From: an uncultured Eubacteriales bacterium
GTDB lineage: Bacteria > Bacillota > Clostridia > Oscillospirales > Oscillospiraceae
NCBI GenBank assembly: GCA_900316255.1
Contig: ONCI01000035.1
Span: 1-36,698, forward strand
Reading direction: 5' to 3'
DNA: 36,698 bases
Below are positions 1 through 36,698 of the stretch, in pieces; position 1 is the stretch's first letter, and each line of letters starts with the position of its first letter. The notes under the pieces were generated by a model, which saw only the letters and a program-made list of their open reading frames with translations, was not told the origin of the DNA and searched no databases. A program made the translations under genes and the position numbers.

Positions 1-44
1 TCGTGCCGCGCCTCCCGCGCTGTCATCCTGAGGAGGTGAAACCG
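1..44. repeat. 44-base direct repeat, copy 1 of 2
   Basis: Identical to 309-352. It contains TGTCATCCTGAGGAGG, which resembles a ribosome binding site but is not followed by a gene. The left edge coincides with the window edge, so the unit may be longer. Confidence 0.85.
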
Positions 45-107
45 ACGAAGGATCCCGACGGCGCCAGGCAGGATATATCGCAGTGCATACGGAAAACGAA
101 GATTGCG

Positions 108-172
108 CCGTGGGCGAGATCCTTCGACTCGCTTCGCTCGCTCAGGATGACACCTCATCCGCCCCAGTGTGC
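108..172. repeat. 65-base direct repeat, copy 1 of 2
   Basis: Identical to 354-418. It contains CTTCGACTCGCTTCGCTCG, a run of CGCTTCG-like words able to fold on itself. It has no coding features. Confidence 0.85.
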
Positions 173-308
173 CGCCGAGCAATGCTCGGCGCTACAGGGC
201 ACCTTCTCCTCAAGGAGAAGGCGAAGGGGCGGGCGATTCTTGAATCGCGTCTACGCGGGATGGGAGAATGCGGGCGGCTGACAGCCGCCATTACGACAGA
301 GACGAGCA

Positions 309-352
309 TCGTGCCGCGCCTCCCGCGCTGTCATCCTGAGGAGGTGAAACCG
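309..352. repeat. 44-base direct repeat, copy 2 of 2
   Basis: Exact second copy of positions 1-44. It is followed almost directly by the second copy of the 65-base unit, whereas about 63 bases separate the two units in the first array. The arrays therefore differ by an insertion or a deletion. Confidence 0.85.
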
Positions 353-353
353 G

Positions 354-418
354 CCGTGGGCGAGATCCTTCGACTCGCTTCGCTCGCTCAGGATGACACC
401 TCATCCGCCCCAGTGTGC
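354..418. repeat. 65-base direct repeat, copy 2 of 2
   Basis: Exact copy of 108-172, lying one base after the second 44-base repeat. Confidence 0.85.
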
Positions 419-645
419 GCACTGGGGCACCTTCTCCACAAGGAGAAGGCGAAGGGGCGGGGAAGGCGAAGGGGCGGGCGATTCGTGAATCGCGTATACG
501 AAGGAGATGTAATTGAGACGACACCTCATCCGTCATTCGGCGGACCGTGACACGCCGAATGCCACCTTCTCCTCAAGGAGAAGGCGAAGGGGCGGGGAAG
601 GCGAAGGGGCGGGGAAGGCTTTAGGCGGACGACCAATGGTCGTCC

Positions 646-6753: not shown

Positions 6754-6776
6754 ACAAGGGAAGGAGCTTTGCTGTT

Positions 6777-7046
6777 ATGAAAAAGAAAAAGTTTACGCTT
6801 CCTTTTGTGCTGCTGGAAGAAGGCGGCCCGATCGATCCCGGTGAAGGGCCCGGCGTGGCCATTGGCACCGGTCAGAGCACAGTTGACGTGGAACCCTTTG
6901 ATTGGGAGATGTGGTCGGTTATGTTCGATGAGGACGATTCCGACGGCGACGGTACTCCCGGCACATGGGGCGACTATGTCGCATGGATGACGAACAACGG
7001 CTTTGAAGACCTTATTGACTGGTCTCAGCAGCCCGAAGAGCCGTAA
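6777..7046 (+). CDS. 89-residue acidic peptide with a leader-like N-terminus
   Basis: I do not recognise this family. The ATG at 6777 follows AAGGAG by 10 bases; an in-frame ATG at 6750 overlaps the previous stop and lacks a site. The product has a Lys-rich start (MKKKKFTLPFVLLEEGG) with a double glycine at residues 14-15 after the hydrophobic/acidic stretch, then a Gly/Pro-rich segment (DPGEGPG, GTGQS), then a very acidic half with FDEDDSDGDGTPG, three Asp in alternate positions as in EF-hand or thrombospondin-3 calcium loops, and several Trp. It has no cysteines, no clear signal peptide and no membrane helix. It sits between the surface-protein gene and two HPr-kinase-like genes and is followed directly by a terminator. 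It could be a modified-peptide precursor, a chaperone-like partner of the surface protein or a small calcium-binding protein. Confidence 0.75.
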   Translation: MKKKKFTLPFVLLEEGGPIDPGEGPGVAIGTGQSTVDVEPFDWEMWSVMFDEDDSDGDGTPGTWGDYVAWMTNNGFEDLIDWSQQPEEP

Positions 7047-7125: not shown

Positions 7126-7860
7126 ATGAATTCCACTGTATTTCAATTGACATTTGCTGATCTTACGTTCAACGTTTCTTTCCTGAATCGGGAAACGGTC
7201 TTCTATTTTCGGCCGCGGATGACCCATACGCATGCAATCGCAGGGAACCTGTCCGCATCCCGCGAGGACATGGAATCCTTTCGTTCCTATTTCCCGCCCG
7301 ACACGCCGGAACCGTATTTGGAATACCGATGTCTCATGTTTCTGTTTGCGCGTGAGCTGCTTCGGTTAGGCTGTTTTATGTTTCATGCCTTTGCTTTCCG
7401 TTGGCAGGATCGTGCATGGCTTTTGACGGCGCCTCCAGGCACGGGGAAGACAACGCAGTTCCTGAACTGGATCTCGATGTTCCCCGGGGAGATCCAGGCG
7501 ATCTCCGGCGATATGCCGATCCTCCATGTGGGCGCCGACGGCATGATCCGGGTCCACCCGAGCGCTTGGAACGGGAAAGAGGACCTCCGCGGTGCGCAGG
7601 CCGCTCCTTTGGCCGGACTGGTCCTGCTGCAGCAGGGAAAGGAAAACCAGATCGCAAAATTAGGTGTTCAGGATGCCTTGATCCCGCTTCTCAGACAGTT
7701 TATCGCCATTCCGGAGACGGAAGGGGAATGTCTTTCCGTTTCCGGCATTCTGGATCAGATGCTCTCGACCTCTCCTTGCTGGAAGATGATCAATACCGGT
7801 GATTTGGAATCTACCCGTCTTCTGCGGGAAACGCTGAAAAGCGATCCGTCCTTTCGATGA
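7126..7860 (+). CDS. HPr-kinase-like P-loop protein, paralogue A
   Basis: A 244-residue protein with the layout of the HprK/PEPCK-like nucleotide-binding fold. The Walker A motif APPGTGKTT has Lys108, preceded by FAFRWQDRAWLLT, the strand pattern of HprK-like ATPases. A candidate metal/catalytic acid is Asp129 in ISGDMPIL, and a conserved VHPSAWNGKE (about 143-152) follows. The N-terminal 70 residues are variable and beta-rich, like the small domain preceding HprK-like cores in peptide-modification clusters. It has no membrane segment or DNA-binding motif. True HPr kinases are longer (about 310 residues) and carry a different P-loop (GxSGxGKS), so this is a relative rather than hprK itself. 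The start has only a weak upstream site. The next gene is a clear paralogue. Action on the upstream peptide is a guess from context. Confidence 0.75.
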   Translation: MNSTVFQLTFADLTFNVSFLNRETVFYFRPRMTHTHAIAGNLSASREDMESFRSYFPPDTPEPYLEYRCLMFLFARELLRLGCFMFHAFAFRWQDRAWLLTAPPGTGKTTQFLNWISMFPGEIQAISGDMPILHVGADGMIRVHPSAWNGKEDLRGAQAAPLAGLVLLQQGKENQIAKLGVQDALIPLLRQFIAIPETEGECLSVSGILDQMLSTSPCWKMINTGDLESTRLLRETLKSDPSFR

Positions 7861-7998
7861 GCAAGGGCGATTGCCCTGTCAGATACTTCCGCTTTGCTTC
7901 ACTTTTTCCGTCGCCGAGCAGATCGATCACGATCTCTTCTGCGTTCAATCTATTTCGATAATTTTGAACCAAAATTCAGAAATTGAAGGGTGCAGCCA

Positions 7999-8736
7999 GT
8001 GCAGAAACAAGTTTTTGAATGGGATCTTGCCGGGCATACTGTTACTTTGACGTTTCTTGATCCGCATACGAGATACCGTCTTTTCCCTCCTCCGAGACCC
8101 GCTGCGGATCAAGCTCCGCAAATCGCCGTAACGCCGGAAATGTTGGAGCAGGTGCGTCCTTTTCTTCCGGAAGACGCCACGGATTCCTTTGCTGAGTACC
8201 GGTGTCTCATCCTTCTTTCCGCGCGTTTGCTGCTTCGGTATCGTTGCTGCATCTTCCATGCGGCCGCTTTTCGCTGGCGGGACCGGGCCTGGCTGCTGAC
8301 CGCACCGCCGGGGACGGGGAAGACGACCCAGTATCTCAACTGGCAGCGCCTGTTTCCCGGGGAGATCCAAATGATCTCTGGGGATATGCCCATCCTGGAA
8401 TCCCGGGAGGACGGCAGCGTGTGGGTCCATCCCAGCTCCTGGAACGGGAAGGAGAAGCTCCGCGGCGCGGAGAGCGCACCGCTTGGCGGACTTGTGCTGC
8501 TGGAGCAGGGGAAGGATGACCGGATCGTCTCGCTCTCCGCGCAGGAGGGGCTTGTGCCGCTGCTGCAGCAGTTCATGGTTTTCCCGGAAACGGAGGAGGA
8601 GATCCTGCGTATCGCGGGACTTCTGGAACGGATGTTGCTGATGGCGCCGCACTGGAAAATGGTCAACCGCGGCGGGGACGCGTCCACAAGGCTGCTGCGG
8701 GAGACGCTGGAGCAGAGCATTCAGGAAGCAGAATAA
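7999..8736 (+). CDS. HPr-kinase-like P-loop protein, paralogue B
   Basis: A 245-residue paralogue of the preceding gene, more than half identical by eye around the nucleotide-binding core: the same APPGTGKTTQ P-loop, ISGDMPIL acid motif, VHPSSWNGKE segment and the closing STRLLRETL. The GTG at 7999 is chosen over the GTG at 7990 because GAAGGG lies 8 bases upstream and the two paralogues then align from residue 1 (MNSTVF against MQKQVF). A 138-base gap with a small hairpin (AGGGC-GATT-GCCCT near 7864) separates the copies. Two diverged copies side by side suggest two substrates or a heterodimer. Its stop codon lies inside the large palindromic terminator. The family assignment rests on motif pattern; the substrate is unknown. 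Confidence 0.75.
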   Translation: MQKQVFEWDLAGHTVTLTFLDPHTRYRLFPPPRPAADQAPQIAVTPEMLEQVRPFLPEDATDSFAEYRCLILLSARLLLRYRCCIFHAAAFRWRDRAWLLTAPPGTGKTTQYLNWQRLFPGEIQMISGDMPILESREDGSVWVHPSSWNGKEKLRGAESAPLGGLVLLEQGKDDRIVSLSAQEGLVPLLQQFMVFPETEEEILRIAGLLERMLLMAPHWKMVNRGGDASTRLLRETLEQSIQEAE

Positions 8737-8778
8737 AGAAAGAGCTTGACGTCACGTGACGTCAAGCTCTTTCTTTAT
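8733..8778. terminator. Perfect 46-bp palindrome, bidirectional terminator
   Basis: Two 23-base arms meet with no loop: positions 8733-8755 are the exact reverse complement of 8756-8778, centred on GACGTCAC/GTGACGTC. The outer arms are A/T-rich (ATAAAGAAAG / CTTTCTTTAT) and supply U-rich ends in both directions. It separates two convergent genes and overlaps the stop codon of the upstream one. Terminator function fits the position; the unusually perfect symmetry is noted as a finding. Confidence 0.85.
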
Positions 8779-8788
8779 GTAGGAGGGA

Positions 8789-9808
8789 TCAGCCCTGCCA
8801 GATCTTGCTGCGGTCGATGTCTTTGAGGGTGGCGGCACCGCACATGGTCATGGTGGACTTGAGTTCGCCCACGATCTTATCCATGTAGACCTTGAAGCCC
8901 TCTTCGCCGGCACCGTAAATGGCGGTAAGGATGGGGCGGCCGATGAGCACGCCGTCAGCACCCAGAGCCAGGGCACGGAACACGTCCACGCCGGAACGGA
9001 TGCCGCCGTCCACCAGGATGGTGATGCGGTCCTTCACCGCGTCGGCAATGGCGGGGAGAACCTCCGCCGTGGAGGGCACGCCGCCCTGCACCCGGCCGCC
9101 GTGATTCGAGACCACGATGGCGTGGGCGCCGGCTTCCACCGCCTTGCGGGCGCCGGCCACGGTCATGATGCCCTTGATGATGAAGGGACGGCCGGCGTAG
9201 TCGATGATCTCACGCATCTCGTCCACAGACTTGCTGCCGGCGTTGGGGTTCATGGCCTTCAGGAAGGGGAGACCCGCTCCGTCCACGTCCATGGCAACGG
9301 CGAACACGTCCGCCTGCTCCACGATGTCCAGCTTCTCAAAGACGAACTCCTTGTTCCAGGGCTTGATGGTGGGGATGCCCATACCGCCGACCTTGACCAT
9401 GTCCTGCACGGCGCTCTTCATCACTTCCGGGTCCACGCCGTCTCCGGTCAGGGCCGCCACGCCGTAGTTGGCGGCGGCGGGGACCAGAATGGAGTTGTAG
9501 GTAAAGTCGGTGTGCTTGTTGCCGTAGTGCAGAGTCAGAGCACCGAGGGGCGCGGCAAAAATGGGGGCGGCAAAGCGATGGCCGAACATCTCAAAGGAGA
9601 CGTCGGGCTCCACATTCTGGCAGAGCGTGTCCATGTTCACGAAGATCTCCTGCCACTTGTCATAGTTGCGGGAGGCGGTGGGCCCGGGGTATTTGCAGCC
9701 GGGGCCGGGGACGGTGTTGCCGCAGGCGCGGCCGTTGCACACGGGACAGGCTTTGCAGTAGGGACCGATGCAGTCTCTGGCGGCGGCCAGAACTTCCGGA
9801 TAGGTCAT
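8789..9808 (-). CDS. FMN-dependent alpha-hydroxy-acid oxidising protein (lactate oxidase/dehydrogenase family)
   Basis: A 339-residue TIM-barrel flavoprotein of the glycolate oxidase/L-lactate dehydrogenase family, expected to oxidise a 2-hydroxy acid to the 2-keto acid. The catalytic His and Arg lie in VSNHGGRVQGG, a flavin-contacting Lys in FIIKGIMT, and the FMN phosphate site in DGGIRSGVDV and GADGVLIGRP. The usual Asp of the NHGxRQLD motif is replaced. The N-terminus has six Cys (C-x4-C-x2-C-x2-C-x4-C-x8-C within about residues 13-40), a possible metal or Fe-S site that seems typical of anaerobe versions. The start at 9808 is chosen because AGGAGG lies 8 bases upstream; an earlier in-frame ATG overlaps that site. 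It has its own promoter. The substrate is not determinable here. Confidence 0.85.
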   Translation of the reverse strand: MTYPEVLAAARDCIGPYCKACPVCNGRACGNTVPGPGCKYPGPTASRNYDKWQEIFVNMDTLCQNVEPDVSFEMFGHRFAAPIFAAPLGALTLHYGNKHTDFTYNSILVPAAANYGVAALTGDGVDPEVMKSAVQDMVKVGGMGIPTIKPWNKEFVFEKLDIVEQADVFAVAMDVDGAGLPFLKAMNPNAGSKSVDEMREIIDYAGRPFIIKGIMTVAGARKAVEAGAHAIVVSNHGGRVQGGVPSTAEVLPAIADAVKDRITILVDGGIRSGVDVFRALALGADGVLIGRPILTAIYGAGEEGFKVYMDKIVGELKSTMTMCGAATLKDIDRSKIWQG

Positions 9809-9850
9809 GAGAAAAACCTCCTTCAAGATTGTCGTTTATTTGCTGTTTGT

Positions 9851-9879
9851 ATTATGAAAGCTGCGGAAAGCTTTGTCAA
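9851..9879 (-). promoter_or_regulatory. SigA-type promoter for the hydroxy-acid oxidising gene
   Basis: On the minus strand, TTGACA (9874-9879) and CATAAT (9851-9856) are separated by 17 bases, giving a leader of about 40 bases before the start at 9808. Confidence 0.75.
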
Positions 9880-9908
9880 GTGATACCGGATATCGGCGAG
9901 CCGCGCGT

Positions 9909-10808
9909 CTATTCGGCGGGGTGCAGGCCCGTCCCGTCGAAGGCGGGGATCATCTCGTCCGTGGCGGCCTCGGTATCCTGCCAGTAGCCCTCCAGACCGC
10001 GCTTTTGCAGATAGGCGATCAGGCGCTGGTTGGTCTCCGCGTCCACACGCTGCTGCAGCTCCGGGAAACGCTCCAGGCCAGGCATGGGGGTGTATTGGCT
10101 CATGAGGGAGAAGAGGATGCTGCCGGCGGGGAACTCCTCCGCGGCAAAGTCGATCACGTCCATGGCGTTCAGGTCCTGGCCCGGCAGGATCAGATGGCGG
10201 ATCAGCACCCCGCGGCGAAGCATGCCGTCTTCGTCCAGGATGCAGGGCCCGGTCTGGCGGAACATCTCCCGGATGGCGGCGGCGGCGACGGCGGGGTAGT
10301 CCTCCGCCAGGGAATAACGCTTTGCCAGGGCCGGCTTCCAGTATTTGAAGTCCGGCAGGTAGACCTGGACCAGACCCTCCAGCAGGCGCAGGCTATCCAC
10401 ACTCTCGTAGCCGGAGCTGTTCCAGACCACCGGGATGCCCAGGTCCAGCCCATGCAGCGCCTCCGCGATGGGGCGGATGAAGTGCGCGCCGGTTACCAGG
10501 TTGATGTTATGCACCCCTTGATCCCGCAGCCGGAGCATCAAATCCCGGAGGGCAGGAACGGAGAGAATCTCGCCTGTCCCGCCGCCCCGGCTGATCTCCC
10601 GGTTCTGGCAGAACACGCAGCGGAGATTGCAGCCCGTAAAAAATACGGTGCCGGAGCCTCGGACGCCGCTTATGCAGGGCTCTTCGCCAAAATGGGGCGC
10701 AGCCCGGGAAACCCGGGGAAGAGCGGGGGAGCGGCATACACCACCGGGCTCAATCGGGCCGCGTTTTGCCCCACATTGGCGGGGACAATCGTTACAAAAA
10801 ACATCCAT
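9909..10808 (-). CDS. Radical SAM protein, PflA-like (COG1313 type)
   Basis: A 299-residue radical S-adenosylmethionine enzyme resembling putative pyruvate formate-lyase activating enzymes. The cluster-binding CxxxCxxC is in FTGCNLRCVFCQN (about residues 60-72). An N-terminal Cys group (CNDCPRQC) gives the early Cys pattern common in this subgroup. A middle segment reading NLVTGAHFI and VWNSSGYES is characteristic of these proteins. The start at 10808 has GAGGAA 8 bases upstream; frames extending further run into AT-rich promoter sequence. No glycyl radical enzyme is adjacent, so its partner is unknown. It has its own promoter and diverges from trmL. Confidence 0.85.
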   Translation of the reverse strand: MDVFCNDCPRQCGAKRGPIEPGGVCRSPALPRVSRAAPHFGEEPCISGVRGSGTVFFTGCNLRCVFCQNREISRGGGTGEILSVPALRDLMLRLRDQGVHNINLVTGAHFIRPIAEALHGLDLGIPVVWNSSGYESVDSLRLLEGLVQVYLPDFKYWKPALAKRYSLAEDYPAVAAAAIREMFRQTGPCILDEDGMLRRGVLIRHLILPGQDLNAMDVIDFAAEEFPAGSILFSLMSQYTPMPGLERFPELQQRVDAETNQRLIAYLQKRGLEGYWQDTEAATDEMIPAFDGTGLHPAE

Positions 10809-10877
10809 TCTGATCGTTCCTCGGAATCTTTTCGGCTTTTTGGCAAAATCACCATAAAATTGGAAAATCCGGGAAAG

Positions 10878-10906
10878 ATTATACCCTAAATTTGTGGATA
10901 TTGCAA
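10878..10906 (-). promoter_or_regulatory. SigA-type promoter for the radical SAM gene
   Basis: On the minus strand, TTGCAA (10901-10906), a 17-base spacer and a perfect TATAAT (10878-10883), about 70 bases upstream of the start codon. Confidence 0.8.
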
Positions 10907-10952
10907 GAATCCGAAAAAAATGCAAAAAAGTACATGAATTTTTGGAAAAGTG

Positions 10953-10961
10953 TGCTAAAAT
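10953..10961 (+). promoter_or_regulatory. Possible extended -10 promoter for trmL
   Basis: TGCTAAAAT forms an extended -10 element with no good -35 box upstream. It sits about 45 bases before the chosen trmL start. Confidence 0.4.
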
Positions 10962-11005
10962 GATGCCGATTGAGAGACCTGAATACAGATCCGGGGGTGG
11001 GTGTT

Positions 11006-11491
11006 TTGCTGGATATCGTGCTGGTGGAGCCGGAGATCCCCCACAATACCGGCGCCATCGCCAGAACCTGCGCCTGTACCGGGGCAAGACTGCACCTCAT
11101 CAAGCCTCTTGGCTTTGACATCTCCGACAAATGGGTCAAGCGCTGCGGCCTGGACTACTGGCATCTGGTGGATATCTCCGTTTATGAGAACCTGGACGAG
11201 TATTTTGCCAGGCGGGGCGATGAGAACCTGTGGCTTGCCACCACCAAGGCGCCCCGGGCTTACCATGAGGCAGAGCTCTCCGGGGACGTGACGCTGATGT
11301 TCGGCAAGGAGACCGCCGGGCTGCCCCTGTGGCTGCGGGAGCGCTATCGGGACAGATGCATCCGGATCCCCATGATCTCGGAGGCAAGAAGCCTCAATCT
11401 TTCCAATTCCGTTGCCATTCTGGCCTATGAGGCGCTGCGGCAGCAGGGCTTCCCGGGCCTTATGGAGGCCGGCGAAATGTCGGCTGAATAA
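11006..11491 (+). CDS. trmL: tRNA (cytidine/uridine-34 2'-O)-methyltransferase, TrmL type
   Basis: A 161-residue SPOUT-fold methyltransferase that modifies the wobble ribose of certain leucine tRNAs using SAM. Family motifs are all present: EPEIPHNTGAIART near the start, LMFGKETAGLP (SAM knot) and RSLNLSNSVAILAYE near the end. The start is uncertain. TTG at 11006 gives the family's usual beginning (LLDIVLVEPEIP) and follows a GGGGGTGG stretch by 5 bases; GTG at 10997 or TTG at 10970 are in frame but extend beyond the usual N-terminus. It is the first gene before pgk, 30 bases upstream, perhaps co-transcribed. Confidence 0.88.
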   Translation: MLDIVLVEPEIPHNTGAIARTCACTGARLHLIKPLGFDISDKWVKRCGLDYWHLVDISVYENLDEYFARRGDENLWLATTKAPRAYHEAELSGDVTLMFGKETAGLPLWLRERYRDRCIRIPMISEARSLNLSNSVAILAYEALRQQGFPGLMEAGEMSAE

Positions 11492-11521
11492 ACTGATAAA
11501 CTTTTTTTAGGAGGATAACCC

Positions 11522-12787
11522 ATGAACTACAGCAAGAAGACCATTTACGATGTGGACGTAAAGGGTAAGAAGGTCCTGCTTCGCTGCGACTTCAACGTTC
11601 CCCAGGACAAGAAGACCGGCGAGATCACCAGTGACAAGCGTATCGTTGCGGCCATCCCCACCATCAAGTATCTGCTGGAGCAGGGCGCAGCCGTGATCGC
11701 CTGCTCTCACCTGGGCAAGCCCGCTGCCACCTTCGACAGCTACGTGAAGAAGCAGGTCGAGAAGGGCAAGAACGAGGCCGACATCACCAAGGAAGAGTGG
11801 GAGAAGTCCCTGCGCAAGCTGACCCTGGCTCCCGTTGCCAAGCGCCTCAGCGAGCTGCTGGGCCAGGACGTGATCTTCGCTTCCGACACCATCGGCGAGG
11901 ACGCCAAGACCAAGGCCGCCGCTCTGCAGCCCGGTCAGATCCTGCTGCTGGAGAACCTGCGCTTCGCCAAGGGCGAGACCAAGAACGACCCCGCCTTTGC
12001 CAAGGCTCTGGCTGACATGGCCGAGATCTTCGTCTCCGACGCGTTCGGCACCGTGCACCGCGCCCACGCCTCCACCGCCGGCGTTGCCGCTTACCTGCCC
12101 GCCTACTCCGGCCTGCTGGTGGACAAGGAACTGAGCATTATGGGCAAGGCTCTGGAGAATCCTGCCCGTCCCTTCGTCGCTGTGCTCGGCGGCGCCAAGG
12201 TTTCCGACAAGATCAACGTTATCAACAACCTTCTGGAGAAGGCCGACACCATCATCATCGGCGGCGGCATGGCCTACACCTTCAAGGCGGCTCAGGGCTT
12301 CAAGATCGGTAAGTCCCTGCTGGAGGCCGACCGCATCGACTACGCCAAGGATATGATCGCCAAGGCTGAGGAGAAGGGCGTGAAGTTCCTGCTGCCCATC
12401 GACAACATCTGTGCCAAGGAGTTCTCCGCCGACGCCGAGCCCATTCTGGTGGAAGGCGACATCGCCGACGATCTGATGGGCATGGACATCGGCCCCAAGA
12501 CCCGCGAGATCTTTGCCGAGGCCGTGAAGGGCGCCGGCACCATCGTGTGGAACGGACCCATGGGCGTGTTCGAGTTTGACGCTTTTGCCGAGGGCACCAA
12601 GGCTATGGCCCGCGCTCTGGCCGAGAGCGGCGCTGTCACCATCGTGGGCGGCGGCGACTCCGCCTCTGCGGTGGAAAAGCTTGGCTTTGCCGACAAGATC
12701 ACCCACATCTCCACCGGCGGCGGCGCTTCCCTGGAGTTCCTGGAAGGCAAGGAGCTGCCGGGCGTGGCCTGCCTGCTGGACAAGTAA
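11522..12787 (+). CDS. pgk: Phosphoglycerate kinase
   Basis: A 421-residue cytoplasmic glycolytic enzyme transferring phosphate from 1,3-bisphosphoglycerate to ADP. The N-terminal substrate domain begins [13 protein letters not shown] and contains CSHLGKPA. The C-terminal nucleotide domain carries [20 protein letters not shown] and [11 protein letters not shown] followed by STGGGASLE. It is slightly longer than the approximately 394-residue Bacillus enzyme because of an insertion around residues 75-100 ([18 protein letters not shown]). AGGAGG lies 7 bases before the ATG. Its codon choice is strongly biased toward C-ending codons, as expected for high expression. First of the glycolytic set pgk-tpiA-gpmI. 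Confidence 0.97.
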
Positions 12788-12815
12788 GTTTTCAGTTTTG
12801 AGTTTTTAGTTTTTA
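12788..12815. repeat. TTTTTAG-type short repeats between pgk and tpiA
   Basis: Degenerate heptad-like units (TTTTCAG, TTTTGAG, TTTTTAG, TTTTTAG) fill the gap just before the tpiA ribosome binding site. Matching units flank gpmI at 15042-15068 and 15156-15190. Confidence 0.7.
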
Positions 12816-12833
12816 GAAAACGAGGATTTGACA

Positions 12834-13517
12834 ATGAATAGAAAGTACCGTAAGACCATTATTGCCGGCAACTGGAAGATGAACCAGCTGGCCTCCACCA
12901 TCAAGCCCTTCATGGAAGAGCTGAAAGCCAATATGCCCAAGACCAAGACCTGCGACGTGGTGCTCTGCGCCCCCGCCGTGATGGTCCCCGCCCTGATCCG
13001 TGCCGGTAAGGACTGCAAGGTCGCCGCCGGCGCCCAGGACGTTTCCAAGTTCGAGAAGGGTGCTTACACCGGTGAGATCTCCGCCGCCCAGCTGGCGGAC
13101 ATCGGCGCCAAGTACTGCATCGTCGGCCACAGCGAGCGCCGCCAGTATCACGGCGAGGACGACATGCTGGTCAACGCCAAGGCCAAGGCCCTGCTGGCAA
13201 AGGGCATCGCCCCCATCATCTGCGTTGGCGAGAGCCTGGAGCAGCGTGAGATGGACCTGACCATGGAGTATGTTGCCTACCAGGTCAAGGCTGCCCTCTC
13301 CGGCATCGATGCCACCCAGCTGCGCCGCTGCGTCATCGCCTATGAGCCCATCTGGGCCATCGGCACCGGCAAGACCGCTACCGCCGAGCAGGCGCAGGAA
13401 GTCTGCGAGGGCATCCGTGCCGTGATCCGCAAGATCTACGGCGCCCGTCCCGCCCGTGCTGTCAGCATTCTCTACGGCGGCAGCATGAACGCCAAGAACG
13501 CTACCGCTCAGGACTGA
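12834..13517 (+). CDS. tpiA: Triose-phosphate isomerase, C-terminally truncated
   Basis: A 227-residue version of an enzyme normally about 250 residues long that interconverts DHAP and glyceraldehyde 3-phosphate. The catalytic residues are present: Lys in GNWKMN, His in IVGHSERR and Glu in AYEPIWAIGTGKTAT (loop 6). The sequence follows the family to YGGSMNAKNA and then ends abruptly with TAQD. The final helix and the phosphate-gripping loop (normally DGGLxGGASL) are absent, and no downstream frame supplies them before the terminator at 13530. About 20-28 residues are missing. ATG at 12834 has GAGGA 7 bases upstream. As written the enzyme should be inactive or badly impaired, so an internal deletion or an assembly gap near 13500 is likely. 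Confidence 0.9.
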   Translation: MNRKYRKTIIAGNWKMNQLASTIKPFMEELKANMPKTKTCDVVLCAPAVMVPALIRAGKDCKVAAGAQDVSKFEKGAYTGEISAAQLADIGAKYCIVGHSERRQYHGEDDMLVNAKAKALLAKGIAPIICVGESLEQREMDLTMEYVAYQVKAALSGIDATQLRRCVIAYEPIWAIGTGKTATAEQAQEVCEGIRAVIRKIYGARPARAVSILYGGSMNAKNATAQD

Positions 13518-13529
13518 TCCGGCAAATCA

Positions 13530-13561
13530 GGGGATGCAAGGATAGCTTTGCATCCCCTTTT
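13530..13561 (+). terminator. Intrinsic terminator after tpiA
   Basis: GGGGATGCAA (13530-13539) pairs fully with TTGCATCCCC (13548-13557), extended by a G-T wobble, followed by TTTT. It lies between tpiA and gpmI in the same direction and may cap the pgk-tpiA transcript or tune gpmI. Confidence 0.85.
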
Positions 13562-13592
13562 CCAAATGTATCAGAAAGGAATTTTCTCATTT

Positions 13593-15039
13593 ATGAAAAA
13601 AGCCGTTTTTATCATTCTTGACGGTTTCGGCATTGCGCCCCCCACCGCAGGCAACGCCATTGCCCAGGCCAAGAAGCCCAATCTGGACAAGCTCTTTGCC
13701 GAGTACCCCTGCACCCAGCTGCAGGCTTCCGGCCTTGACGTGGGTCTGCCTGAGGGCCAGATGGGCAACTCCGAGGTGGGTCACACCAACATCGGCGCCG
13801 GCCGCGTGGTGTTCCAGATCCTGCCGAAGATCACCCAGGAGATCCAGACCGGCAAGTTCTTTGAAAACAAGGTCTATATCAAGGCCATCGAGGACGCCAA
13901 GGCCAATGGCAAGGCCCTGCACATCATGGGCCTGCTTTCCAACGGCGGCGTGCACAGCCACATCACCCACATCTTCGGCATCCTGGATATGGCCAAGCAG
14001 CGGGGCGTGGAGAAGGTCTATGTCCACTGCTTCCTGGACGGCCGTGACGTGCCGCCTACCAGCGGCGCCGGCTTTGTGAAGGAACTGCATGAGAAGTGCC
14101 AGTCCCTTGGCAACGCGCAGATCGCCACCATCCAGGGCCGCTTCTGGGGCATGGACCGCGACAAGCGCTGGGACCGCGTGGAGAAGGGTTATCGCGCCAT
14201 CGTCTGCGGTGAGGGCGTGGAGGCTGTGGACCCTGTGAAGGCTGTGGAAGACAGCTATGCTCAGGGCGTGACCGACGAATTTGTGGAGCCCACCGTGGTC
14301 TGCAAGGACGGCGCCATCAACGAGGGCGACAGCGTCATTTTCATGAACTTCCGTCCCGACCGCGCCCGCGAGATGACCTGGGCCCTGAATCTGCCCGATT
14401 TTGACGGATTTCAGCGTCCCAAGACCGTCTATCCTCTCAGCTATGTCTGCACCGCCCAGTATGACGAGGCGCTGCCCCTGCCCATCGCCTATCCCCCCGA
14501 GGTCATCGAGAACACCATCGGCGACATCATCAGCTCCCGCGGTCTCAAGCAGTTCCGCGTGGCGGAGACCGAGAAGTACGCCCACGTCACCTTCTTCTTC
14601 AACGGCGGCGTGGAGAAGCAGTGCGAGGGCGAGGACCGCTGCCTGGTGCCTTCTCCCAAGGAGTTCCCCACCTACGACCTGATCCCCCAGATGAGCGCGG
14701 AGAAGGTGGCCGACAAGGTGGTGGAGGCCATTGCCTCCGAGCAGTACAGCCTGATCGTCTGCAACTTTGCCAACTGCGACATGGTGGGACATACAGGCGT
14801 GATGGAAGCCGCTGTGAAGGCTGTGGAGACCCACCGCCGACCACGGCAACGCCGACGTGATGTTTGACGAGACCGGCAAGGTCAATACCGCCCATACCAC
14901 TAACCCCGTGCCCTTCTGCGTGCGGCAGAAGGGGATCGAGCTGGAGCCGGGCCGTCTGGCCGATATCGCCCCCACGATTCTGAAGCTCATCGGCATCGAG
15001 CAGCCCGCCGACATGACCGGCAAGTGCCTGATCAAGTGA
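13593..15039 (+). pseudogene. gpmI: Cofactor-independent phosphoglycerate mutase, frameshifted by an apparent internal deletion
   Basis: Interconverts 3- and 2-phosphoglycerate through two metal ions. From ATG 13593 (AAGGAA 12 bases upstream) the frame reads VFIILDGFG, the catalytic Ser motif QMGNSEVGHTN and CNFANCDMVGHTG, matching the family closely. At about 14833 it passes into another frame after VKAVET, giving a false tail ending at 14867. The true C-terminus resumes in the +1 frame at [12 protein letters not shown] and runs to 15039 (AHTTNPVPF ... CLIK). Comparison with the E. coli order of residues between these motifs suggests about 62 bases are missing, which also explains the frame change. 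As written no full-length enzyme can be made. A programmed frameshift is excluded because residues are missing. Confidence 0.88.
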
Positions 15040-15041
15040 GT

Positions 15042-15068
15042 TTCTAGTTTTTAGTTCATAGTTTTTAG
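15042..15068. repeat. TTTTTAG-type short repeats after gpmI
   Basis: TTTCTAG, TTTTTAG, TTCATAG and TTTTTAG in succession directly after the gpmI stop, similar to the units before tpiA. Confidence 0.7.
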
Positions 15069-15081
15069 AATTGAAAATCGA

Positions 15082-15116
15082 AAAACCTCCCGGATGTGTA
15101 ATCCGAGAGGTTTTTT
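15082..15116. terminator. Bidirectional intrinsic terminator between convergent genes
   Basis: AAAACCTCCCGGAT pairs with ATCCGAGAGGTTTT (one mismatch) around a 5-base loop, followed by TTTTTT on the plus strand and, on the minus strand, by the T-run opposite 15081-15085. It serves gpmI and probably the convergent fusion gene. Confidence 0.9.
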
Positions 15117-15155
15117 CATTGAAGAAGGGACATTCTGGATATTTTTTAATCAGCA

Positions 15156-15190
15156 TGATACTAGAAACTAAAAACTAAAAACTAAAAACT
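15156..15190. repeat. AAAAACT tandem heptads
   Basis: CTAGAAACT followed by three AAAAACT units, running into the stop of the minus-strand gene at 15189. Read on the minus strand they are AGTTTTT units, the same family as at 12788 and 15042. The unit is far too short for CRISPR. Confidence 0.75.
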
Positions 15191-16229
15191 ATTTCTCATG
15201 GACCCGCTTGCCGGTGATATGCTCCGGCGTGAGGGAAAAACAAAGCACGCGGTGGCCTGCGTGGGCCACTTCCCACTCGATATAGTCCCGGTCGTCGGTG
15301 AACTGATAGGAGAGTATGCGGCTGATTTCCAGTGCCCGGTCATGATCCTCCACGATTTCCAGACGGCCGAAGACGATGACGCTGTGATAATAGAGAGACC
15401 AGCCGTCCCCGTCTGTGTCAGCCTGCTCCAGCACACAGAAGCTTGACTTGTCCGAGCGGCGCATGGCGTCGATCTTGTGGCCGGCCATCCCGCTGTGGAA
15501 GTAGAGCTTTCCGTCCTCCGGGTCATACCAGTGGTTGATGGGAAGCGTATAAGGATAGTTTTCATCCCCCAGAACGGAGAGAAATCCCCGCTTTTCCTGC
15601 CTCAGGATACGAATACAATCCTCCTGTGACAGGGCCTGTTTTGCCCTTGCCACCGGGCGAAAGACGGGAGATGGCTCGTCCAGCTCCTCGGCCAGGATGG
15701 AATACAGAGCCAGATCGCAGCAGGGATCGCTGTTGTTGCTGCCGCTGCGGCGGAGGATCCCTTCCTGCTTCATACCGGCCTTGCGCATGACCTTGCCGGA
15801 GTTGGAATTGTGGATATCATGCACGGCCAAGACTTTTTGAAAGCCGACTTCCCGGATCAAATACTCGATCACGGCGCGCAGCGCTTCCGCGGTGATGCCA
15901 CGGCCCCACCAGGCTTTGCCGATGCAGTATCCGATTTCGGCGCTCGCGTACTTCTCATTTATCCGGACAACGGAAATGCTGCCGATGGGCTCGTTCAGCT
16001 CTTTCGGCACGATGGCCCATTGATAAAAGTCCGGCTTTTCGGAACTCTGCGCCCATGCCTCGGCGATCTGCCGGGAAACGGCGGCATCGGCATGTGGAGG
16101 CCAGGTGAGATAGCGGGTCACCTCCGCATCATGGGCCCAGTTGCGGAACATGGCGTCCCCGTCCCCGGGGGTGAAGGAGCGCAGACGGAGACGCGGCGTC
16201 TCCAAAAGAACGGTTCCCTTGTGCTCCAT
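15189..16229 (-). CDS. GNAT acetyltransferase fused to a PNPOx-like flavin-binding domain
   Basis: A 346-residue two-domain protein. Residues about 1-175 are a RimJ/RimL-type GNAT N-acetyltransferase: TPRLRLRSFTPGD start, acetyl-CoA loop GKAWWGRGITAEA, and NSNSGKVMRKAGM near the end. Residues about 200-346 are a split-barrel of the pyridoxamine-phosphate-oxidase/nitroimidazole-reductase (Nim-like) family: KRGFLSVLGDENYPY, LYFHSGMAGHKIDAMRRS and SSFCVLEQ. Each half exists alone in other bacteria; the fusion suggests acetylation coupled to flavin chemistry, perhaps detoxification (inference). ATG 16229 has AGGAGA 9 bases upstream. Its promoter overlaps a short inverted repeat, and it diverges from the metallophosphoesterase gene. 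The last codons overlap the AAAAACT heptads. Confidence 0.85.
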   Translation of the reverse strand: MEHKGTVLLETPRLRLRSFTPGDGDAMFRNWAHDAEVTRYLTWPPHADAAVSRQIAEAWAQSSEKPDFYQWAIVPKELNEPIGSISVVRINEKYASAEIGYCIGKAWWGRGITAEALRAVIEYLIREVGFQKVLAVHDIHNSNSGKVMRKAGMKQEGILRRSGSNNSDPCCDLALYSILAEELDEPSPVFRPVARAKQALSQEDCIRILRQEKRGFLSVLGDENYPYTLPINHWYDPEDGKLYFHSGMAGHKIDAMRRSDKSSFCVLEQADTDGDGWSLYYHSVIVFGRLEIVEDHDRALEISRILSYQFTDDRDYIEWEVAHAGHRVLCFSLTPEHITGKRVHEK

Positions 16230-16248
16230 ACGATCATCTCCTTTTTCA

Positions 16249-16278
16249 CGAGTATAACATACTCGGATAAAATCGCAA
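16249..16278 (-). promoter_or_regulatory. Promoter with overlapping inverted repeat (possible operator) for the fusion gene
   Basis: On the minus strand TTGCGA (16273-16278), a 16-base spacer and TATACT (16251-16256). The inverted repeat CGAGTA-TAACA-TACTCG (16249-16265) covers the -10 box, a position from which a bound repressor would block transcription. No regulator is identified. Confidence 0.55.
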
Positions 16279-16296
16279 GAAGAGAAATACGCGGTC

Positions 16297-16325
16297 TTGC
16301 ACGGGAATCGTTTATCCGATATAAT
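16297..16325 (+). promoter_or_regulatory. SigA-type promoter for the metallophosphoesterase gene
   Basis: TTGCAC (16297-16302), a 17-base spacer and a perfect TATAAT (16320-16325), placing transcription start just before the ribosome binding site. Confidence 0.75.
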
Positions 16326-16355
16326 TGCACAAAAGAGGGAAGGAGGGGGAAGCCA

Positions 16356-17618
16356 GTGAGAAGACAGGTGCTTGCATGGAGCCTGGTTTTGCTGCTGTGC
16401 CTGGGCTTTGCCGCCTGCGGTGCCGAGGATCAGGGAGAGAAGAACGGAACCTTTCTTGTGACGGCTACGGACCTGCACTATCTTTCACCGGAGCTCACCG
16501 ACCACGGAGAGACTTTTTGGCAAGTCATGAAAAATGGGGACGGCAAGGTGACGGAATACTGCGAGGAGCTGATCGACGCCTTCCTGGCCGAGCTGATCGC
16601 CCAGAAGCCGGACGCGCTCATCCTGACAGGGGACCTGAGCTTCAACGGTGAGAGGGCAAGTCACGAGCGCCTCGCCGCAAAACTCCAACTGGCTGAAGAT
16701 GCGGGGATCCCGGTGTTTGTTCTTCCCGGAAATCACGATGTGTATCGGGGGACCTCGGCCTCGTTCTTTGGGGATGGCTATGAGCTGGTGCCCAGCGTCA
16801 GCGGAGAGGACTTCAGTCGGATCTACGGAGCTTTCGGCTTTGAGGAGGCGCTTTCCCGGGATACGGATTCTCTCAGCTATATGGCGCAGCTGAGCGAGGG
16901 CACAAGGATTCTGATGCTGGATGCGAATACCTTCCATGATTACTGCAGTCTGTCGAAAAAGACCCTGGACTGGGCGGAGGAACAGCTGTCCGCCGCGAAG
17001 GAGGAAGGGGTGGACGTCCTGGCTGCCTGCCATCAGAATCTGTACCAGCATTCAGTCTTTCGGGGCGGCTATATGCTGGAATGCTCGGAAATGCTCCATC
17101 AGCTGCTGGAGGACTATCGGGTGCCTCTGATGCTCAGCGGCCATATGCACATACAGCATATCCTCACGGAAGGAACCGTCACGGAGATCGCCACCTCTCC
17201 GCTGACCATGAGCGCCTGCCGTTACGGCCTGCTGCATCTGAATGGAGATCGGATCCGCTATGAGACCGGGAGCGTGGACCTGGATGCCTGGGCAAAGAAG
17301 CAGGGGATCGATAATCAGGACTTTCAGCATTTCCCGCAGTATGCCCTGGACCGGCTGCGGGAACGCACCAAAATCCAGGCCGAAGGCATGCTGGAAGGGA
17401 AGGACTATGACCCCAACATGGCACAGAAGCTGATCGACTATGCCTGTGAACTGAACCTGGGCTATTTTACAGGGGACTTGCGCGGGATCCCGGAGCTGGA
17501 TCCGGAGGGTGCGCTGCAGGCGGAATGGGAGAACAACCGCAGTTCCTTCAGCGGCTACTTTGCCTCCCTTGCGCCGGAGATCGGAGCAGACTATACCCGG
17601 TGGACCAATGGAAAATAA
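16356..17618 (+). CDS. Metallophosphoesterase lipoprotein (calcineurin-like)
   Basis: A 420-residue exported phosphoesterase. GTG at 16356 is chosen because GGAGG lies just upstream and the product then begins with a lipoprotein signal (RRQVLAWSLVLLLCLGFAAC), Cys20 being the probable lipidated residue. The dimetal site is complete: DLH (VTATDLHYL), GD (ILTGDLS), GNHD (LPGNHDVY), H in AACHQN and GHMH (LSGHMHIQ). These are the standard ligands of class III calcineurin-like phosphatases. The C-terminal 140 residues are helical and lack known motifs. The substrate could be a phosphomonoester, diester or wall-linked phosphate outside the membrane. The stop codon is followed 3 bases later by a long hairpin shared with the convergent gene. 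Confidence 0.88.
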   Translation: MRRQVLAWSLVLLLCLGFAACGAEDQGEKNGTFLVTATDLHYLSPELTDHGETFWQVMKNGDGKVTEYCEELIDAFLAELIAQKPDALILTGDLSFNGERASHERLAAKLQLAEDAGIPVFVLPGNHDVYRGTSASFFGDGYELVPSVSGEDFSRIYGAFGFEEALSRDTDSLSYMAQLSEGTRILMLDANTFHDYCSLSKKTLDWAEEQLSAAKEEGVDVLAACHQNLYQHSVFRGGYMLECSEMLHQLLEDYRVPLMLSGHMHIQHILTEGTVTEIATSPLTMSACRYGLLHLNGDRIRYETGSVDLDAWAKKQGIDNQDFQHFPQYALDRLRERTKIQAEGMLEGKDYDPNMAQKLIDYACELNLGYFTGDLRGIPELDPEGALQAEWENNRSSFSGYFASLAPEIGADYTRWTNGK

Positions 17619-34083: not shown

Positions 34084-34932
34084 ATGAAGTATGAAAACAC
34101 AGCGATCCTGACGGATCTGGACGGGACGCTCTTTAACAGTCAGGGTTTGGTCTCTGACGAGGATCGGGCGGCGATCGCTGATTATATCGCGCAAGGCGGT
34201 ATTTTCGGCGTGGCGACAGGACGGGAGCCTCATAACGCCCGGCTCCACTTGCCGGAGCTGCCGATGAACGCCCCTTCCATCGTCCTGAACGGAGCGGCGG
34301 TCTATGATTTTCTGGCTGAGCGCTATCTGAATACCGTTTTGATGGACAAGGAGGCCGCCCTGCAGGTGCTGGAGTACTGCGGAAAGCTGCAGCTTCCCTT
34401 GGATGTGCAGATCTACACCACAGAAGGGATCTTCTATGCAACGCCCCTGGAGACGGCTGACCCGGGCTTTCTTCGGATCCACCAGCCCACCAGCTTTCAG
34501 CCTATGGAGGTCCTGGTCCGAAAGGATTGGATGAAGGTAGTGCTGCTGGAACGGGAGAAGGACGCGCTGCAGTCCATGGTCACTTTTCTGCAGACTTCCG
34601 GCCTGGATCGGAGGATCAGCCTGGTGGAGGGGACCACGGATGTGGTGAAGATCGGAAAGTACCAGGAGCTGCTGGCCGCAGACATCAACAAGGGCGTGGG
34701 GATCTCCCTTCTGCACAATCTGCCCGTTTATGAGAACAGAGAGATCTTTGCGGTGGGGGACTACTGGAACGATTATGAGCTCCTTGAAGCTGCGGATCAT
34801 GCCTGCGCGCCGGCGAACGCCATTGAGGAGATCAAGGCGATCAGCAGCGTTCTCTTGCCCTCCCATAACGACAGTGCTATTGCCAGGCTGATCCGGAATG
34901 TGATCCCGAAGATGGGGGAACCCTCTGCCTGA
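34084..34932 (+). CDS. Cof-type HAD-superfamily phosphatase
   Basis: A 282-residue cytoplasmic hydrolase of HAD subfamily IIB. Motif I is LTDLDGTLF (nucleophile and acid Asp), motif II ATGRE, and motif IV VGDYWNDYELLEAAD; the cap domain lies between about residues 85 and 190. Members dephosphorylate sugar phosphates, phosphorylated vitamins or flavin nucleotides, and the substrate cannot be read from sequence. Usually motif IV reads GDxxND; the form here matches. A single-gene unit with its own promoter and hairpin; the closeness of nagB may hint at a sugar phosphate. Confidence 0.9.
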   Translation: MKYENTAILTDLDGTLFNSQGLVSDEDRAAIADYIAQGGIFGVATGREPHNARLHLPELPMNAPSIVLNGAAVYDFLAERYLNTVLMDKEAALQVLEYCGKLQLPLDVQIYTTEGIFYATPLETADPGFLRIHQPTSFQPMEVLVRKDWMKVVLLEREKDALQSMVTFLQTSGLDRRISLVEGTTDVVKIGKYQELLAADINKGVGISLLHNLPVYENREIFAVGDYWNDYELLEAADHACAPANAIEEIKAISSVLLPSHNDSAIARLIRNVIPKMGEPSA

Positions 34933-34943
34933 GCGTACAGAAA

Positions 34944-34976
34944 ACAGCCATGCGGGACTTGAACCTGCATGGCTGT
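34944..34976 (+). terminator. Hairpin downstream of the HAD gene
   Basis: ACAGCCATGCGGG pairs with CCTGCATGGCTGT (one G-T wobble) with a 7-base loop. The following sequence is only moderately T-rich, so it may be an imperfect terminator. Confidence 0.7.
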
Positions 34977-35022
34977 CGCTTTGCTACCTTAAATTCGTGC
35001 GGATTGAACATCGCTGTTTTTC

Positions 35023-35052
35023 TTGACGATAGAGGGGGTCCTGTTATATAAT
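35023..35052 (+). promoter_or_regulatory. Promoter for the ribozyme-nagB transcript
   Basis: TTGACG (35023-35028), an 18-base spacer and a perfect TATAAT (35047-35052). Transcription should start near 35060, about 80 bases before the ribozyme cleavage site. Confidence 0.8.
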
Positions 35053-35102
35053 ACCGGGTGGTTCGTGTGTTCATGCCCTTGAACACCACAACATATAGTA
35101 AA

Positions 35103-35320
35103 ACAGACCAGCTCTGTGCAAGAGGAGCAGAGGGACTGTTAGCGCCAGGCCCGTAAATGGGTGACGAGGAATGGCAGTTGTCGAAAGACTCGGCGGATGC
35201 TGCCACGGCGGCTGCGGCATGGGCCCCCAGTGGGGAGAGATGCTGCGGCGGTGCGTCGTTAGAGAGAAGGAAAAAAGCGGAATCAAAACCGTAACAGAGC
35301 TTCTCTTATCACCAGGAAGA
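35103..35320 (+). ncRNA. glmS-type self-cleaving ribozyme (GlcN6P-responsive)
   Basis: The conserved core of the glmS ribozyme appears in order and spacing: TTAGCGCCAG at 35139-35148 with the expected cut between A35141 and G35142, a short P1-like stem (GCCC-loop-TGGGT), GACGAGGA (35163-35170), a GGCAG/CTGCC stem enclosing TGTCGAAAGACT, then CGGCGGATG (35191-35199), then a long P3-type stem (GCGGCAT 35214-35220 with ATGCTGC 35240-35246, and CCCC/GGGG inside). A hairpin (35103-35139) directly precedes the cut. The 3' boundary (P4 region) is approximate. The known family uses glucosamine 6-phosphate as cofactor to cut the mRNA, leading to its decay, and normally precedes glmS; here nagB follows. 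Confidence 0.88.
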
Positions 35321-35403
35321 GCTTTTTCCGATCTTGTTCACATACGGTCCGCAGGGACCGATTCGGAAAGAATCAGATAAAGTTGATAAGGAGTTAATTT
35401 GAT

Positions 35404-36195
35404 ATGCGTGTTGTTATCCAGGATAATTACGAGAAAATGAGCAAGTGGGCGGCAGATTACATTGCTGCGAAGATCAAGGCTCACAAGGAAGACCGGCCTT
35501 TCGTGCTGGGCCTGCCCACAGGCTCCAGCCCCATCGGCGTGTACAAGGAACTGGCCCGCATGAATCAGGCGGAGGAGCTCTCCTTTGCCAATGTCGTGAC
35601 CTTTAATATGGACGAGTACCTGGGTCTGCCCCGGGAACATGACCAGAGCTACTGGTATTTCATGCACGACAATTTCTTCGATCATCTGGTGGACATGAAG
35701 CCGGAGAACATCAACATCCTCAACGGCATGACCAAGGATCCGGAGGGGGAGTGCGCCCGCTACGAGGAGAAGATCGCCTCTTACGGCGGCATTGATCTCT
35801 TCATGGGCGGTATCGGCGTTGACGGCCACATCGCTTTCAACGAGCCTTATACCTCCCTGCGTTCCCGCACCGGTGTGCGCAATCTGACCACGGACACCCG
35901 GATTGTGAACTCTCGCTTCTTCGGCAATGATCCGGAAGCGGTGCCCAGCCAGGCCCTGTCCGTGGGCGTAGGAACGGTGTTCGATTCCAAGGAGGTCCTG
36001 ATCCTCATCAACGGCCACAACAAGGCGCGCGCCCTGGCTGCCACCGTGGAAGGCTCCGTCAGTCAGAAGTGGACCTGCAGCGCGCTGCAGATGCACAACG
36101 GCGCCATCATCGCCTGCGATGAGGCCGCCTGCGGAGAACTGACCGTGGACACTTACAAGTATTTCCTGGATATCGAGAGGAAGGAGAGACTTTAA
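35404..36195 (+). CDS. nagB: Glucosamine-6-phosphate deaminase
   Basis: A 263-residue enzyme interconverting glucosamine 6-phosphate and fructose 6-phosphate plus ammonia. Close to E. coli NagB (266 residues) throughout: phosphate loop LGLPTGSSPIGVYK, the proton-abstracting Asp in FNMDEYLGLP, the ring-opening DGH triad in GGIGVDGHIAFNEP, and RTGVRNLTTDTRIVNSRFF. ATG 35404 follows AAGGAG by about 10 bases. It is preceded by a glmS-type ribozyme and followed 1 base later by a hexapeptide-repeat gene, so it should be repressed when GlcN6P is high. That logic suits a biosynthetic (aminating) role more than a catabolic one. Confidence 0.95.
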   Translation: MRVVIQDNYEKMSKWAADYIAAKIKAHKEDRPFVLGLPTGSSPIGVYKELARMNQAEELSFANVVTFNMDEYLGLPREHDQSYWYFMHDNFFDHLVDMKPENINILNGMTKDPEGECARYEEKIASYGGIDLFMGGIGVDGHIAFNEPYTSLRSRTGVRNLTTDTRIVNSRFFGNDPEAVPSQALSVGVGTVFDSKEVLILINGHNKARALAATVEGSVSQKWTCSALQMHNGAIIACDEAACGELTVDTYKYFLDIERKERL

Positions 36196-36196
36196 G

Positions 36197-36698
36197 ATGT
36201 TTACGATCGCAGATCTCTATGATCTTGACCATACCCTGGCAGCCGAGCGAGGATTACGAGGAAGTGCAGCCCCATGTTTGGGTCCACAAGACGGCGAAGG
36301 TCTTCCCCTCTGCCTACCTGGGCGCTCCCTGCATCATCGGCCCCAACACCGAAGTGCGCCACTGCGCCTTCATCCGCAGCTCCGCTCTCGTCGGGGCGGA
36401 TTGCGTTGTCGGCAACAGCGTGGAGCTCAAAAACGTGATCCTCTTCGACCATGTGCAGACGCCGCACTATAACTACGTGGGCGACAGTATCCTGGGTTAT
36501 TACAGCCATATGGGCGCTGGCTCCATCACAAGCAACGTGAAGTCTGACAAGAAACTGGTGGTCGTACACAACGGCACCGAGCAGATGGAGACCGGCGTGA
36601 AGAAATTCGGCGCCATGCTGGGGGACTATGTGGAAGTGGGCTGCAATGCCGTCTGCAATCCCGGCACGGTCATCGGCCGCCATTCCAACATCTATCCC
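36197..36698 (+). pseudogene. Left-handed beta-helix nucleotidyltransferase-like protein, frameshifted and cut by the window edge
   Basis: The ATG at 36197 follows GGAGAG and reads MFTIADLYDLDHTLA, the usual start of clostridial proteins annotated as UDP-N-acetylglucosamine pyrophosphorylase-like. At about 36240 the frame is lost; the expected continuation PSEDYEEVQPHVWVHKTAKV starts in another frame (about 36242) and runs to the edge through hexapeptide repeats (AYLGAPCIIGPNTEVRHC, GADCVVGNSVELKNV, MGAGSITSNVKSDKK, GTVIGRHSNIYP). A segment of about 28 residues between the two, from memory of the family, is missing, about 80-85 bases. It starts 1 base after nagB, so both are one operon. Acetyl- or nucleotidyl-transfer in amino-sugar metabolism is the likely role; there is no GlmU pyrophosphorylase domain. 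Confidence 0.8.

Follow-up and report, generated by a model that had tools for sequence, protein, structure and literature searches.

Why would a bacterium place an RNA switch normally found on glmS, the gene for the glutamine-dependent synthase of glucosamine-6-phosphate (GlcN6P), in front of nagB, a gene of the GlcN6P deaminase family? The question is raised by the end of the window analyzed here, which is the whole stretch of 36,698 nucleotides from an uncultured Eubacteriales bacterium. The first-pass annotation of this DNA had proposed that the switch makes sense if NagB runs in reverse as the ammonia-dependent GlcN6P synthase of the cell. According to the 2011 abstract of McCown, 463 ribozymes of this class were reportedly known, all but two of them in glmS mRNAs, and in the titles and abstract openings of the literature that we covered, neither a nagB-linked glmS ribozyme nor a biosynthetic bacterial NagB was found.

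A glmS-class ribozyme in the leader of nagB

The ribozyme core lies, as the first-pass annotation had stated, between a promoter-like site and nagB. A candidate sigma-70-like promoter (TTGACG-18-TATAAT) at 35023..35052 of the plus strand agrees with the consensus at 11/12 positions in a consensus scan; sites of such quality occur 0.5 times on average in the shuffled region. It is followed on the same strand by the glmS-class ribozyme (35138..35314), which ends 89 nt 5′ of nagB, by the ribosome-binding site AAGGAG (35388-35393), and by nagB itself (35404..36195, 263 aa). The core strings can be read in the sequence, with AGCGCC starting at 35141, then GACGAGG, then CGGCGGATG.

The Rfam model RF00234 aligns over its whole length (model positions 1-167) to positions 35130-35294 with 36.3 bits (E 6.3e-7, 601 bases searched), which is 0.7 below its gathering score of 37. 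The window therefore stands just outside RF00234 by that score, and a gathering scan of the whole window was empty because its match is just under 37. By the gathering threshold alone the ribozyme would be called absent, while the window obtains 144 bits with R1, a covariance model of the subgroup built from 33 nagB-type leaders, the window leader included. Across the whole genome of the window, the same match is the only one to RF00234 at E 0.001. The covariance check suggested earlier thus fell marginally short for the window and succeeded for most of its relatives: seven of nine family loci of the nagB type reach the Rfam cut-off, the two below it being the window and L028 (33.6 bits), and 17/19 pass in a second set of loci. 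A long P3 insert probably lowers the Rfam score of the window.

Homology and computed conservation identify the element as a real glmS-class ribozyme, which confirms the proposed link between this class and nagB. With RF00234 and the Bacillus subtilis glmS leader it shares the core sequence, the cleavage-site string, the helix plan, and a 5′-leader position ahead of a GlcN6P-metabolism gene. What stands downstream differs: a place in the glmS mRNA is a usual, not a structural, trait of the class, and here the ribozyme is followed by nagB, often accompanied by glmM and a hexapeptide gene. By homology, cleavage is predicted between A35141 and G35142.

Conserved structure and a variant 5′ helix

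For 40 aligned leaders, RNAalifold (with pseudoknots left out) predicted 31 pairs in six helices, five of which we take to correspond to those named P1, P2, P3, P4, and P4.1. Changes on both sides of the pair were present in at least one sequence for 17 of the 31 pairs, spread over five helices, and the sixth consists of two invariant pairs. The columns of A|GCGCC, GACGAGG, and CGGCGGATG are mostly invariant in these leaders, and the AGCGCC string is kept in 46/46 model matches. The conservation of core and cleavage-site string in every match, together with the covarying stems, makes it highly improbable that the ribozyme is a decayed remnant that has lost cleavage and is merely carried with a gene cassette, a view that could draw on the window score slightly below the Rfam cut-off and on the repeated changes of ribozyme presence on the NagB tree described below.

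Directly 5′ of the predicted cut, a helix that we name P0 (35102..35140, plus strand) encloses an AGAGGAG stretch and ends beside the cleavage site; the fold of 35089-35140 has an energy of −12.7 kcal/mol. In minimum free energy folds, a helix 5′ of the cut that reaches position −2 or −3 was found in 42/46 nagB-type leaders (12.3 expected from shuffles), compared with 2/17 glmS-type leaders of the family (4.0 expected) and 11/96 of the class sample (17.3 expected), the latter set consisting only of the 96 leaders whose start could be located by script. A Shine-Dalgarno-like GGAGG or AGGAG within 45 nt 5′ of the cut is enriched in both ribozyme types, namely in 41/46 nagB-type leaders (8.2 expected) and in 14/17 family (3.4 expected) and 42/96 class (8.9 expected) glmS-type leaders. 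Inspection by eye indicated that a start codon is often missing after this stretch in the nagB-type leaders. One possible reading, which the STAB-SD idea underlies, is that the stretch acts as a stabilizer lost on cleavage. What is new at this locus is thus not the ribozyme class but its context, its target, and the variant form of its 5′ helix.

A switch of the opposite sign, in which GlcN6P binding or cleavage raises the expression of a catabolic nagB, would suit an enzyme that is catabolic in most organisms (PMC4281351, in the part available), and a weak stem noticed by eye after P4 in the window (CTCTT/AAGAG, with CTTTTT) could compete with P4. A terminator scan of 34900-35420 was empty, which weighs little as shuffled sequences average only 0.6 hits, and in relatives such as L015, L019, L056, and L070 only tens of bases separate P4 from the start codon and the T-run is absent. 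Antitermination through P4 and CTCTT/AAGAG was rejected on these two grounds, the empty terminator scan and the missing counterpart of the stretch in several relatives. With the operon partners and the losses of nagA reported below also speaking against it, activation of a catabolic nagB by the element is distinctly unlikely.

Distribution among relatives

In a sample of 200 genomes from the family of the window, 27 have an RF00234 match (E 0.01), and tblastn assigned these loci to glmS (17), to nagB (9), or to neither (L026, where the ribozyme is accompanied by glmM, the hexapeptide gene, and a NagB of a second type, 36% identical). A second set of named loci comprised the best 80 of at least 589 confirmed relatives of the window NagB, mostly gut metagenome-assembled genomes (MAGs) labeled Clostridia or Bacillota; among these best 80, the 33-leader model detected the ribozyme upstream in 38, and 42 were without it, including L068 with only 95 nt of upstream DNA. 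The comparison of nagB upstream regions therefore bears out a recurring arrangement. After one duplicate record was dropped, nine family and 37 named genomes made up a set of 46 ribozyme-nagB genomes, whose named part admits only genomes with a NagB close to the query.

The class sample of 391 genomes yielded a model match at E 1e-4 in 117, of which 110 hold glmS, three hold nagB (the window, G508, and an interrupted copy in G385), one holds glmM with the hexapeptide gene but no nagB (G608), and three hold none of these genes. Since 110 of 117 class loci hold glmS, control of nagB is the minority arrangement. The ribozyme of G608 is of the nagB type and precedes the hexapeptide gene and glmM, with nagB not found in the 8.5 kb read, and in G626 glmS is preceded by a nagB-type ribozyme (138 bits). 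In G385 (L323, G385:C8:84000-100000, positions 7350-8200), the ribozyme is followed by a NagB start of 94% identity that is broken after about 110 codons, and then by an apparent IS transposase gene. Another genome has an orphan on the minus strand (L324, G340:C6:56000-66000, positions 6638-6793): a ribozyme of the glmS class with 82.6 bits precedes an inverted repeat, in a region where glmS, glmM, and nagB were not found.

On the NagB tree, the presence of the ribozyme changes at least 13 times, compared with an average of 32.5 in shuffles, and the carriers do not form one clade. NagBs from records labeled Chloroflexota and Spirochaetota sit among those of Bacillota, so horizontal spread is likely, with the proviso that MAG labels may be wrong. 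The window NagB is 87-92% identical to the NagBs of four other family genomes, and PyrG and type III glutamine synthetase (GSIII) are 76-77% and 69-71% identical to those of the window genome in the two genomes compared; the higher identity of NagB may reflect stronger conservation alone.

Operon partners of the ribozyme-linked nagB

Behind nagB in the window lies a hexapeptide gene resembling the acetyltransferase part of GlmU (36197..36698, plus strand), whose frame is broken near 36244 and which is truncated by the contig end. Its start and its conserved body do not share a reading frame, and near the break, roughly 450 bases before the end of the contig, it lacks about 28 residues of the relative encoded at locus L151 (genome G004); the break may be an assembly error or real. 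At the opposite end of the window (1-550), the peptide string RLPRCHPEEVKP occurs twice in the translations of open reading frames, suggesting an interspersed repeat. The intact L151 protein, to whose residues 23-196 the window product is 83% identical, served as a stand-in for the broken copy. It matches TIGR03992 (archaeal-type GlmU) at profile positions 215-393, that is, the acetyltransferase end, and is thus a counterpart of the C-terminal half of GlmU-type proteins, with 142.9 bits against a full-length cut-off of 292.1. The order at L151 is ribozyme, nagB, hexapeptide gene, and glmM (TIGR01455, 539.7 bits), and consecutive genes abut or are separated by only a few bases.

With the intact L151-type query, the hexapeptide gene was found near nagB in 32 of the 46 loci and glmM in 33 (either in 35, both in 30); in eight loci, by hand count, one or both lie between ribozyme and nagB. 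The suggestion that the hexapeptide neighbor points to a biosynthetic operon is strengthened by this recurrence, and the same 35 loci argue against the ON switch for a catabolic NagB. Eleven loci, that of G131 included, have neither partner. The contig ends soon after nagB in two of them (L025, L058) and the rest have at least 2 kb downstream; because contig ends explain few of the 11 and leave G131 unexplained, our confidence in a biosynthetic operon is slightly lowered.

In L238 and L256, glmS stands behind the ribozyme and before the hexapeptide gene, which is the slot that nagB has in the window. Both synthase candidates also occur together: the order in L075 is ribozyme, hexapeptide gene, nagB, glmM, and glmS, and downstream of the ribozyme glmS directly follows nagB in L090 and lies 1.2 kb past glmM in L052. 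A partial glmS is located immediately 5′ of the ribozyme in L050. Of the 46 genomes, four have a GlmU above the cut-off. Another 12 show partial matches only, of which 11 cover approximately residues 1-243 and one covers 2-293, and the remaining 30 have no match at E 1e-30. The absent half could therefore come from the hexapeptide protein.

GlmS, NagA, and alternative routes to GlcN6P

The genome of the window (G000) encodes a full GlmS (795.8 bits), so NagB as its sole GlcN6P synthase is rejected, and of the earlier proposal it is the role as a candidate synthase that stands. This glmS is separate from the nagB locus, and the ribozyme model gave no match in its region; the nagB ribozyme is not a degenerate copy. 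The glmS gene lies directly behind that of a type III glutamine synthetase and close to those of asparagine synthase and CTP synthase, in a cluster of glutamine-using enzymes that is also found in several relatives (L144, G000:C84:14500-32500, positions 8003-17171). The asparagine synthase (12772-14339) is seemingly split into overlapping frames (12772-13602 and 13491-14339). By hand count, at least one of the three GlmS neighbors is present in 5/6 family and 9/20 named regions of ribozyme-nagB genomes compared with 2/10 regions where glmS itself has the ribozyme, in regions of varying length and with only 20 covered for the named genomes.

GlmS was found in 36 of the 46 ribozyme-nagB genomes, the window genome included (G230 and G234 by partial, sub-cut-off matches only), and in most of the set NagB is therefore not alone as a candidate synthase; in the other ten genomes, GlmS was not found. 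Scoring weak matches as absent, and with 37 named genomes that carry no completeness figure, 23 genomes have GlmS without NagA, 13 have both, seven have NagA alone, and three have neither. NagA is thus absent in 26 of the 46 genomes, a further point against an ON switch for a catabolic enzyme. In the 13 genomes with both, NagB may run in either direction. Within the sample of 200 family genomes, NagB (E 1e-30) was present in 33 of 42 genomes without GlmS (E 1e-60) versus 84 of the 158 in which GlmS was found (Fisher p 0.003), an association that is only suggestive because the genomes are related and vary in completeness. Nine of the 42 also lacked NagB at these thresholds, and some are incomplete MAGs.

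The genomes without GlmS may instead belong to amino-sugar auxotrophs in which NagB deaminates and the ribozyme has some other purpose. Akkermansia muciniphila is a precedent, being like these carriers a gut bacterium with NagB and without GlmS; the portion of the report available states that its NagB forms no GlcN6P at physiological conditions and that the bacterium requires GlcNAc or GalNAc (PMC5902328). Salvage of GlcNAc would be open to seven of the ten GlmS-less ribozyme-nagB genomes, which have NagA. The three with neither enzyme are G004 (94% complete), G131 (100%), and G208 (completeness not given), and a search of 16 genomes for the EIIC domain of PTS transporters gave matches in G004 and G208 and none in five genomes, G131 among them. 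Lacking GlmS, NagA, and an EIIC match, G131 has NagB as the only GlcN6P route recognized by these searches, and its nagB has neither glmM nor the hexapeptide gene as a neighbor. By turning off a deaminase, the switch would also push accumulating GlcN6P higher, and L238 and L256 carry a synthase gene in the same slot, so that salvage is an unlikely explanation of the arrangement.

A NagB clade with Gly at the Arg158 position

The window NagB resembles the usual enzyme in matching TIGR00502 over its full length (377.2 bits, cut-off 236.9), which places it in that family, and in keeping the FNMDEY and DGHIAFNEP motifs. It differs from the usual enzyme at the position of Arg158 (E. coli NagB numbering), which we take to be a residue of the GlcNAc6P-binding allosteric site, and, across the relatives, in having glmM and the acetyltransferase-like gene as neighbors. 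The position is Arg in the five solved NagBs aligned and Gly in the window NagB, in all 47 ribozyme-linked NagBs (the 46 and L322), and in 48 of 50 others; the two of the 97 without Gly are distant and have His. As judged from the alignment, Gly158 is a trait of the entire clade, shared by members that carry the ribozyme and members that do not.

The NagB reaction is described as readily reversible (equilibrium constant 0.2 M), and for eGNPDA, which we take to be the E. coli enzyme, the K_M for NH4+ is given as 31.4 mM (PMC11593775, in the part available). A precedent for the aminating direction is the NagB of Giardia lamblia, which, according to the available part of its description, efficiently makes GlcN6P from Fru6P and ammonia and is not affected by GlcNAc6P (PMC4281351). 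That enzyme is eukaryotic, and for the window NagB the aminating direction is a prediction. The genome context argues against a net catabolic direction of NagB and does not settle it.

A probable feedback-controlled route toward UDP-GlcNAc

We favor, with a probability of roughly 0.8, the reading that the glmS-class ribozyme is an OFF switch on an operon that makes GlcN6P toward UDP-GlcNAc, with NagB in the aminating direction. When GlcN6P is plentiful, the mRNA would cut itself between A35141 and G35142 and the operon would be turned off. NagB would probably convert Fru6P and ammonia to GlcN6P, GlmM in the relatives would form GlcN1P from it, and the hexapeptide protein, by its likeness to the acetyltransferase half of GlmU, may turn GlcN1P into GlcNAc1P. 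In the genome of the window, the glutamine-dependent GlmS beside the type III glutamine synthetase would probably be the low-ammonia alternative. NagB thus probably works in parallel with the glutamine-dependent route as one that uses ammonia, and only in some relatives would it be the single route. Of this scheme, computation shows the homology and conservation of the ribozyme, the gene order among relatives, and the losses of genes; cleavage, the OFF sign, the direction of NagB, the acetyltransferase function, and the split between ammonia and glutamine are inferred.

The OFF switch on a biosynthetic operon is supported by the scores, covariation, and core of the ribozyme, the operon partners, the scarcity of GlmU matches above the cut-off, glmS in the nagB slot or downstream together with nagB, the gene losses, Gly158, the place of GlmS beside the type III glutamine synthetase, the Giardia precedent, and the equilibrium constant; the biosynthetic direction first suggested for NagB gains from the partners, the slot, and the ten genomes in which GlmS was not found. 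Against it count the genomes with GlmS, the partnerless loci, the ribozyme-free loci among the best 80, the clade-wide occurrence of Gly158, the Akkermansia NagB, the NagA and EIIC matches in GlmS-less genomes, the window score under the Rfam cut-off, and the nagB-type ribozyme of G608 without a nagB in the DNA read.

A broader proposal, which we hold only slightly more probable than its negation, is that ribozyme, nagB, glmM, and a stand-alone GlmU-type acetyltransferase gene form a horizontally spread cassette. It would act as an ammonia-dependent replacement of GlmS under direct GlcN6P feedback, building UDP-GlcNAc precursors and constituting the only recognized entry to the peptidoglycan sugars in some genomes. 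The NagB clade would have lost its GlcNAc6P activation site, and the 5′ helix would display a Shine-Dalgarno-like stabilizer that cleavage removes.

The carriers are mostly gut bacteria, in which a switch that normally sits on GlmS stands before NagB; neighboring genes and gene losses suggest that the reverse reaction serves the making of cell-wall sugar from ammonia. If this is true, some bacteria could make GlcN6P from free ammonia, the ribozyme would track a step of the pathway, not a protein family, and an anabolic function of NagB in bacteria would become directly testable.
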